A stretch of 64,000 nt of DNA. Origin: Protonemura montana. Taxonomy: Eukaryota; Arthropoda; Insecta; Plecoptera; Nemouridae. Every line of letters starts with the position of its first letter. Within the stretch, counting starts at the first letter, position 1. Below are positions 45,701-48,700 of this stretch, piece by piece. The DNA lies in the NCBI GenBank assembly GCA_947568835.1, contig OX387603.1, positions 28,482,651 to 28,546,650 on the forward strand. Reading direction: 5' to 3'. The translations under genes were made by a program, and so were the position numbers. The notes under the pieces are model-generated. The model ran no database searches. It worked only from the letters and a program-made list of their open reading frames with translations, and was not told where the DNA came from.

Positions 45701-48700
45701 ACTCGCGTGTGCCGTGCCATGCGTTCTGCATCGTCCCGCACGCGGGTCTCCTTCGTACGACCGGACGTTCCAGCTTCACGCGGGACATAGCACGGGACGT
45801 TCTTAGGCGGCCCACGCAAAGACGACATGTGGAGGCTGTCCAAGTCCCGCGACCGTGCAAACATGCCCGCCTCCTGATACAAACAAAACAGCAACATGAG
45901 TCAAGCCAATTACCAATCACAAACAACTGCTTCACCACCAAAATTATTAATACTTTTCCCAAGGGATTCAACAAGGGTTTAAAATCTATGATGAAAAATG
46001 TGCACAAAGAATTGATAATTTGGTTTTAAACTTAAAATAACACTCAGCAACGTCCCTTTTTGTCGGTCAGCACTCAGCTACTTTTGCGTTATGTCTGCAC
46101 AATTGTGTGCAGTCCCATATGATAACCAAGTTTTAAGATCCTTGTGTGCTATGCTTGTGCTTATTGCTATGTCAATTGTGTGCAGTCCCATATGATAACC
46201 AAGTTTTAAGATCCGTGTGTGCTTGCTTGTGCTTATTGCTATGTCAATTGTGTGCAGTCCCATATGATAGCCAAGTTTTAAGATCCTTGTGTGCTATGCT
46301 TGTGCTTATTGCTATGTCAATTTTGTGCAGTCCCATATGATAACCAAGTTTTAAGATCCTTGTGTGCTATGCTTGTGCTTATTGCTATGTCAATTGTGTG
46401 CAGTCCCATATGATAGCCAAGTTTTAAGATCCTTGCATGCTATGCTGTTTACCTGCAAGCGCAGCTCGTTAGGCGGCGCTGCGTCGGGACTGCGGAACTT
46501 CCTCCGTGTCTGCGGCGTAGAGTCCAAGCCGGCACCGACGGTGTCTGGCATGAAGTACTTCTCGTGCATCGAGTCGTCTTCGCCCGAGCCACGTCGCTCG
46601 CGGCGGTGTGCAAACGAGTAGCACCGTGCTATCGGTGCTGCAGAAAGCACAGCCTTGCTGCGCTGGCTTCCAACCTCCGCCGCTGGCGCTGGCTTGGATA
46701 GGCTCAGATCGTACTTGTCCAGGATGCCGCGCTGGAAATGAGAGGACATCGAGATGGATTGGTTGCAGGGCTTGAACATGCGTTAACAACACGAGCTTTT
46801 ATAAAACTAACGAGAGAATGTTATGATGTGTTTTTTGGATTTGCTTTGTGCTGAAGAGGTTTGCGGCCCTCGAAAGGGTCTCACGTATCGATGTTTCGAT
46901 GAGGCACGGCTTGTCATCTTCAGGAGAATGATAGAGGACCTCTTCAATGCAGAGCAAATCCAAAAAACACATCATAATGTCAAACCATGGCTCTGAAAAC
47001 AACCACTCAACCTTAATGAGAGAATTTCAAGAGTACAGTTTGCTTCGATAATTTTGAAGCAACTTAGAGGTGATTTTGTTTTTTTTAACATTCTCAAATT
47101 TTGATACGTTGTGGTCCTACCGTAGTTAATTCTAGTAGAATATTTAGAGGGCATTAATTGATTGACTCAATGGCTTACTTTCTAACTTTCTTATTGGACA
47201 AATACATTTGTACAAGAAAATTTAACAAGTGACCTTTTACAGTTCAGAATGCACCTAGCTGCAGAAATACGGATTGAGATTCTTTGGCTCTTTTAATTTT
47301 CAAAAGAGTTTTCCACACATGCAACAATGTACAGACCAGTAGAGAGGGGAAGAGACTCACCGGACCAGACCAGTAGAGAGTAAGAGACTCACCGGACCAG
47401 ACCAGTAGAGAGGGGAAGAGACTCACCGGACCAGACCAGTAGAGAGAGTAAGAGACTCACCGGACCAGACCAGTAGAGAGAGTAAGAGACTCACCTGACC
47501 AGACCAGTAGAGAGAGTAAGAGACTCACCTGACCAGACCAGTAGAGAGGGGAAGAGACTCACCTGACCAGACCAGTAGAGAGGGGAAGAGACTCACCTGA
47601 CCAGACCAGTAGAGAGAGTAAGAGACTCACCTGACCAGACCAGTAGAGAGAGTAAGAGACTCACCTGACCAGACCAGTAGAGAGGGGAAGAGACTCACCT
47701 GACCAGACCAGTAGAGAGAGTAAGAGACTCACCTGACCAGACCAGTAGAGAGAGTAAGAGACTCACCGGACCAGACCAGTAGAGAGGGGAAGAGACTCAC
47801 CGGACCAGACCAGTAGAGAGAGTAAGAGACTCACCTGACCAGACCAGTAGAGAGGGGAAGAGACTCACCGGACCAGACCAGTAGAGAGGGGAAGAGACTC
47901 ACCGGACCAGACCAGTAGAGAGAGTAAGAGACTCACCTGACCAGACCAGTAGAGAGGGGAAGAGACTCACCTGACCAGACCAGTAGAGAGGGGAAGAGAC
48001 TCACCTGACCAGACCAGTAGAGAGAGTAAGAGACTCACCTGACCAGACCAGTAGAGAGAGTAAGAGACTCACCGGACCAGACCAGTAGAGAGGGGAAGAG
48101 ACTCACCTGACCAGACCAGTAGAGAGAGTAAGAGACTCACCTGACCAGACCAGTAGAGGGCAAGAGACTCACCTGAGTGTTGGTGTTTCCCTCGGCTAGT
48201 TTCTTCTTGAAGAGTGGCGTGCTGGTAGAGAGAGTGATGCCAGCAGCAGCGGCAGCGTTGTCGCTGGAGTTCGGGGCACGTGGAGATTCTAGAAGTCGGT
48301 AGCCCGACTCAAGCGAGCATCGACTCAGCGAAACTGAACTCGAGTCACTCGATCGGCCAGAGTCCTGTCACAAAACACAGCTGTCAGGTTAGGTCTGACA
48401 CAAGAACAACAAAAACTGTCAGGATTCCTTCATCAATCTTGTTTTAATCTTTCGTAGCCAGCTTTCTCACTTTTCAAAAAGCTGTGTAATGTTGTTGTAA
48501 GTAATATTATATTATGTGAAACATTTTCAAACACTTTTGAATAGTAGGGACCCCAACACTCAAAACCTTCACTATTTCACAATTTGACGAAATTTTCTGG
48601 AGGTTTAGAACACCGGTAATAAAAATTCATTTTTTATTTTTTTTCCATACGCCTAGTGGTTTGCCCGTGGCAGGGGATGAAAAACCAAATATTTTACTTT

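Follow-up and report, generated by a model that had tools for sequence, protein, structure and literature searches.

The question raised by this locus is how a minisatellite in which every unit carries a splice donor motif came to lie directly behind the donor of a coding exon, and what such a series of donors would mean for the transcripts of the gene. Within the window (the whole stretch of DNA analysed, 64,000 nt), a multi-exon gene was traced on the minus strand, with exons for WW, WW, MyTH4 (two exons) and RhoGAP domains in that order. Eight exons were scanned against Pfam, and matches reaching Pfam's cut-off were obtained for WW (2.7e-6), MyTH4 (5.4e-8 and 1.1e-11, on two exons) and RhoGAP (5.9e-15); the first WW match (E 0.0015) fell below the cut-off, two exons were without a match, and one exon gave only off-topic matches below the cut-off; exon 4 was assigned to no Pfam family. 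Against solved structures, the RhoGAP exon gave weak matches (best E 0.00066). A WW-WW ... MyTH4-RhoGAP order on a single strand is the domain arrangement of ARHGAP39 (Vilse/CrGAP), which we take the gene to resemble, from the domain order of its exons and from general knowledge of this family. The features on which the argument rests at the exon-intron border are as follows.

48173–48364, minus strand: coding exon 4 of 64 codons, ending in phase 0, the last 4 nt (TCAG) belonging to the repeat unit
48167–48175, minus strand: the real donor CAG|GTGAGT, first of 25 (G of GT at 48172)
46732–48172, minus strand: intron 4, as deduced, 1441 nt, of which the array makes up 841
46453–46731, minus strand: coding exon 5, 279 nt

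Between an AG and CAG|GTGAGT, exon 4 is open in a single frame, for 64 codons, and it joins exon 5 in phase; judged by this open frame, the splice signals and its position in the gene order, it is a plausible coding exon, in agreement with the earlier note, which placed the start of the array at the donor of ARHGAP39 coding exon 4. The 5' phase of the exon was set by eye, and the intron upstream begins at a tentative exon, E3b, the start of which is unsettled. A join of exon 4 to exon 6 also keeps an open frame, so that skipping of exon 5 would be in frame. Between exon E3 and the tentative E3b, at 52739–52828, three TGACGTCA palindromes and a further GACGTC occur within about 90 bp.

TRF analysis called an 845-bp array directly at this donor (47332–48176; period 34, 25.0 copies, 94% matches), the parts of which are listed here.

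47332–48176, minus strand: 34-bp minisatellite, 25 units, each with GTGAGT (TRF)
48141–48172, minus strand: unit 1, 32 bp, the TTGCCC variant (unit list)
47361–47392, minus strand: unit 24, also 32 bp (unit list)
47494–48140, minus strand: stretch with the 15 extra AG|GTGAGT copies, candidate dual-specific sites
48140, 48106, 48038, 48004, 47970, 47936, 47834, 47732, 47698, 47664, 47630, 47596, 47562, 47528 and 47494, minus strand: the extra AG|GTGAGT donors
47360–48072, minus strand: stretch with the nine CCG|GTGAGT copies, a weaker donor without AG
48072, 47902, 47868, 47800, 47766, 47460, 47426, 47392 and 47360, minus strand: the CCG|GTGAGT donors

GGTGAGT is present in all 25 units, in the form CAG|GTGAGT in 16 (the real donor and 15 extra copies) and CCG|GTGAGT in nine, which bears out the earlier description of about 25 copies of a 34-bp unit with C(A/C)G|GTGAGT. 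The donors run from the real one at 48172 through 48140 and 48106 down to 47360, with spacings of 32, then 22 times 34, then 32. The first four bases of the array, TCAG, are also the final four of exon 4, and its units are in register with the donor at 48172|48173; at the far end homology stops at CTGGTCTG, after which other intron sequence follows, and the acceptor end of intron 4 (46732) is situated 600 nt past the array and not inside it. The copies are nearly identical to one another, with a second variable place that reads TTACTC or TTCCCC and, in unit 1 alone, TTGCCC. Agreement between unit types was highest at lags of 3, 9 and 12 (9/22, 7/16 and 6/13), the units being too few for a higher-order structure to be read from these values. 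CCG is the form of each of the last four, intron-proximal donors (p = 0.012 on the assumption of independent copies); neighbouring copies mostly agree (adjacent units are of the same type in 17/24 pairs) and are thus not independent, so we make no claim of selection on donors from this end of the array.

The match between array and donor is not attributable to chance, since CAGGTGAGT, counted on both strands, occurs 16 times in the 845-bp array, nowhere in the rest of the window and twice in 200 kb from elsewhere, and since AGGTRAG stands in the unit of one of the 17 arrays of the window (the 34-bp array) and of none of the 16 arrays in the 200-kb sample. Arrays were counted as non-overlapping, with a period of at least 10 and at least 3 copies, and the 200-kb comparison consisted of 20 stretches taken at fixed steps from two contigs, a sample of convenience; arrays cover 13.5% of the window (17 arrays) and 3.1% of this sample (16 arrays).

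Other repeats occur in the window. A 52-bp tandem unit was found at 218–846, 7642–7747 and 15825–16036, one of these arrays overlapping a predicted tRNA-Ser(CGA) at 7623–7695, and the minisatellite seems to consist of a portion of a tRNA-like gene. A 36-bp array (32233–32797) and an 11-bp array (31061–31368) are open in several frames, and frames at 3799–4704, 56915–57676 and 58851–59834 resemble, by eye, fragments of non-LTR reverse transcriptases. Within the introns of the gene itself, arrays of a 73-bp unit lie in opposite orientation at 46100–46446 (intron 5) and 42708–43395 (intron 9), and this 73-bp family is present on many contigs. A dispersed 114-bp array (40486–40995) accounts for 510 nt of the 566-nt intron that follows exon 12, leaving 19 nt on the donor side and 37 nt on the acceptor side, and for a 41-bp array (44351–44859) a good part of the matches listed fall below 1 Mb on their contigs. 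Internal (TTAGG)n tracts were also seen on contig C1 (for example at 11637666 and 16524876), with 13,014 exact overlapping 30-mers genome-wide, an abundance that suggests an arthropod.

Two origins could account for an array in this position: growth from the donor itself, or the arrival of a satellite that is dispersed in the genome and happened to land beside a donor. Searches with the whole array and with a 105-bp piece of it against the 258.5-Mb, 34-contig genome, simple repeats and very common words being skipped, found no second locus of the 34-bp unit. Exon 4 has a single match in the genome, and no paralogue or haplotype lacking the array was found with exon 4 or the far junction as the query, the far junction having one further place with two mismatches. 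Of the neighbouring arrays of the gene, which also include one of 84 bp, three were compared for dispersal: the 73-bp array has 62 candidate places, the 41-bp array 156 and the 114-bp array 612, with 40 scored for each and many contigs represented in every case. The introns of this gene do, then, hold dispersed arrays, one of them (46100–46446) starting 6 nt after the exon 5 donor, and this speaks for a chance landing; against it, the 34-bp unit was found at one locus and not at many, and the real donor, together with four exonic bases, is in register with the units. A dispersed-satellite origin is accordingly largely refuted, and we regard it as scarcely credible. Because the unit was found at one locus only while the three tested neighbours lie at many, the array was probably born at this locus and, as its register suggests, probably from its own donor, which upholds the earlier proposal that it had grown from it.

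As 32-bp units are found near both edges of the array, the founder was probably 32 bp long, with 4 exonic and 28 intronic bases. On the proposed route, a tandem duplication would have taken in the final 4 nt of exon 4 together with 28 nt from the start of intron 4 (TCAG|GTGAGTCTCTT...CTGG), a CT expansion would have turned the interior units into 34 bp, and unequal exchange or slippage may have spread them to 25 copies. We propose that growth into the intron, beyond a working donor, made the array tolerable, the intron still being removed.

The consequences of using an extra donor were read from the frame of exon 4, for which one further feature is needed.

48137–48139, minus strand: TGA in frame with exon 4, within the GTGAGT of donor 2

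Use of donor 2 would add 32 nt and shift the frame, with a stop after 19 new residues, inside exon 5, whereas with donors 3–25 or with retention of the intron 11 residues are read before the stop at this TGA. The phase change expected in the earlier note for the second donor therefore holds, while the added length it gave, 34 nt, does not, the spacing being 32. Its stop codon was also misplaced: unit 1 contains none, and the TGA at 48139–48137 is part of the second donor, so that it is read only with donor 3 or later, or in a retained intron. A premature stop results from every extra donor (24/24 outcomes), at least 254 nt upstream of the end of exon 5. By the general 50-nt rule for nonsense-mediated decay (NMD), a stop at this distance is expected to make the mis-spliced products NMD-prone.

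The donors are of two strengths, and not equal as had been supposed. CAG|GTGAGT has a matrix score of 11.6 and a U1 duplex of −11.9 kcal/mol, the highest and strongest among 18 donors examined in the gene (the E3b donor and the limits of E1 and E9 being less certain), and 15 of the 24 extra donors are the same as the real donor over these nine bases; the remaining 9/24, CCG|GTGAGT, are weaker (9.5; −9.1 kcal/mol). The predicted opening energy of the real donor (5.7 kcal/mol) is within the range predicted for the other donors of the gene (0.6 to 7.9 kcal/mol). A structural advantage of donor 1 over its copies was hinted at with flanks of ±60 nt and was rejected as not robust to flank size, the predicted rank of donor 1 among the 25 in ease of opening being 25, 1, 2, 1, 8, 6 and 10 over seven flank sizes. 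The CCG copies were, in the mean, predicted to be harder to open than the CAG copies whichever of the seven flank sizes was used; at ±60 nt, the prediction for a homogeneous CCG array was reached by 0/200 and 1/200 shuffled spacers and that for a CAG array by 21% and 67%. RNAplfold values were near zero throughout and were discarded.

The arrangement as such has precedents in at least two human genes, ABCA7 and IFI6, so that the architecture is not new, although it is rare. The minisatellite of IFI6 (6-16, G1P3) has a 12-bp unit in about 26 copies; the array described here is like it in supplying multiple splice donors and unlike it in its unit of 34 bp. Two downstream repeat units of the IFI6 minisatellite are reported to be used as donors, giving three mRNA species (PMC4526556, citing Turri et al. 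1995). Closer still is the VNTR in intron 18 of ABCA7, described in 2018 with a 25-bp unit, 23.7 copies in the reference and a first GT that is the donor of exon 18 (PMC5954066). Three changed isoforms are given in that account: retention of one unit through the second donor (about 2 ± 1% of isoforms, unchanged with VNTR size), use of a cryptic acceptor, which is commoner (14 ± 6%), and skipping of exon 19, which alone rose with VNTR length (PMC5954066). Both arrays lie directly after an exon, with the first GT as its donor, a similar copy number and a second donor that shifts the frame; they differ in gene, unit and lineage, and for ABCA7 isoforms and length polymorphism have been measured. 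Since second-donor use in ABCA7 was constant with VNTR size, that gene gives no reason to expect array length to affect donor choice here. An array at a coding-exon donor with a donor-like site in 25/25 units is of the ABCA7 and IFI6 kind, and a narrow search of open-licence papers yielded, in the text available from them, no arthropod donor minisatellite and no intronic donor-adjacent array called dual-specific.

By analogy with these systems, the exon-adjacent first donor would be used in most transcripts, and a minority, spliced from the next donor or donors, would be frameshifted or end at the TGA and be prone to NMD; the inclusion of exon 5 may also be modulated by the length of the array. 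That competing donors need not favour the one on the exon side follows from DOK7, where an intron-proximal donor, also the stronger, is reported to be preferentially selected (PMC5585400). If the last donors of the array won in this way, the gene would be mostly mis-spliced. Taken as a whole, a donor-founded minisatellite born at this locus, with donor 1 mostly used, minor poison isoforms and a possible length effect on exon 5 is the reading that we consider likely.

Other roles have been conceived for the extra copies, and the sites themselves bear on them. Fifteen of the 24 present AG|GT after moderately pyrimidine-rich sequence and are candidates for use as both acceptor and donor, the other nine reading CCGGT. 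Pyrimidines fill 11 of the 16 positions from −20 to −5 in the CAG copies, compared with 7–13 in the gene's real acceptors, and the acceptor score of these copies is 2.7 (3.4 at the first junction), within the gene's own range of −5.0 to 11.8, on a matrix drawn from only 15 sites, 3/18 acceptors having been left out as uncertain. Ahead of eight of the 15 extra CAG copies stands the CTTAC variant, similar to a branch site by consensus. Intron 4 might thus be removed stepwise, through AGs of the array and then the GTGAGT regenerated there, with no trace left in the mRNA. Beyond donor 1 there are 15 AG|GTGAGT junctions that would permit this, 14 of which are separated from it by 60 nt or more; none of 642 AGs in other introns combines such an acceptor score with a donor score as high as that of CCG|GTGAGT, and tandem AGGT units of human UBC are described as being spliced as dual-specific sites (PMC10809524). 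As an acceptor, however, the site is ordinary, scoring below nine and above six of the 15 real acceptors and being equalled by 105 of the 642 intronic AGs, and GGTCTGG interrupts the pyrimidine tract of the units. Drosophila ratchet points, which are experimentally seen and likewise have an acceptor directly followed by a donor, are described as well conserved and predominantly in long introns (PMC8605326), in contrast to 15 candidate copies of moderate acceptor score in an intron of 1441 nt. Stepwise removal is accordingly unlikely. The UBC repeats, in which tandem AGGT could in principle be both donor and acceptor as in the present unit, are coding, with a unit length divisible by three and splicing from unit to unit, and repeats with such dual-specific sites are proposed there to make new introns (PMC10809524); the array of intron 4 is intronic and off frame, AGGT stands in 15/24 extra units and not in all, and the intron does not have both ends in the array, its acceptor lying outside.

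As the earlier note suggested, alongside length-variable mis-splicing, the extra donors might instead serve as a decoy or kinetic trap that holds U1; they might also act as a poison switch that gives regulatory NMD isoforms. The 15 copies that share the real donor's 9-mer and duplex energy and the stop in all 24 alternative outcomes are consistent with such a role, whereas the predicted lower openness of the CCG copies would weaken 9/24 of the sites, and we judge the role decidedly improbable. A related idea is that mis-splicing corrects itself: since an extension left by an extra donor starts with the real donor and may end in AG at its junction with exon 5, splicing once more between the real donor and this terminal AG would restore the exact normal mRNA. 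Extensions that end in AG and leave at least 60 nt (this limit being an assumption) are given by 14 of the 24 extra donors. Re-splicing of mRNA is reported to be repressed by the core of the exon junction complex (EJC) in human cells (PMC8234774), which counts against such a correction, and it is very unlikely. If it were true, CAG|GT followed by a pyrimidine-rich intron start would be an error-buffered repeat, which would explain the growth of arrays beside needed donors; ratcheting through the AG|GTGAGT sites would likewise be silent in mRNA. The donor-founded array with a mostly used first donor is retained as the preferred reading.

Its founding step is akin to the Rogers model of intron gain, in which tandem duplication of AGGT makes paired potential splice sites (PMC4974935, PMC2891723), a 24-bp multi-copy example being known from fission yeast (PMC4974935). 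Both involve a tandem duplication spanning AG|GT; in the Rogers model exonic sequence becomes a new intron, whereas here an existing donor has been multiplied within an existing intron, with four exonic bases in the unit.

At short periods there was no support for the idea that donors commonly grow into arrays across the genome: AGGTRAGT pairs with 10–19 bases between them were found at 15 places, and the reversed pattern used as the control at 33. Thirteen stretches holding such places were examined, of which L008 and L010 have the same sequence as L007, and L014 is an AGGT microsatellite. Open frames running up to the first donor had maximum lengths of 11 to 56 codons in the ten stretches measured; in L004, L005 and L012 (34, 35 and 48 codons) an exon end is possible, with two or three donors and no TRF array. 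Stretch L006 holds a 458-codon frame on the minus strand (1239–2615) with short serine/histidine-rich repeats, and a 56-codon frame on the opposite strand; its donor-like AAGGTGAGT pairs, on the other strand from the 458-codon frame, are probably there by chance. In stretch L013, a 20-bp array (1443–1735, minus strand; 14.6 copies) has CAGGTGAGT in some units and no long frame before it, several units reading CACCTGCAGGTGAGT, which are also AG|GT sites.

The array is thus probably a further case of a donor-founded minisatellite, in a probable arthropod gene, and adds this lineage to an architecture otherwise known to us from human genes only. It suggests a simple route from an exon-intron border to a minisatellite. 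Its 16 donors of the same 9-mer and nine weakened ones, regularly spaced within one intron, constitute a natural competition experiment, which could show the influence of position by itself on donor choice and whether AG|GT units serve as both kinds of site. By analogy with ABCA7, such an array can accompany a length-dependent change in exon inclusion, which in this gene may concern exon 5.
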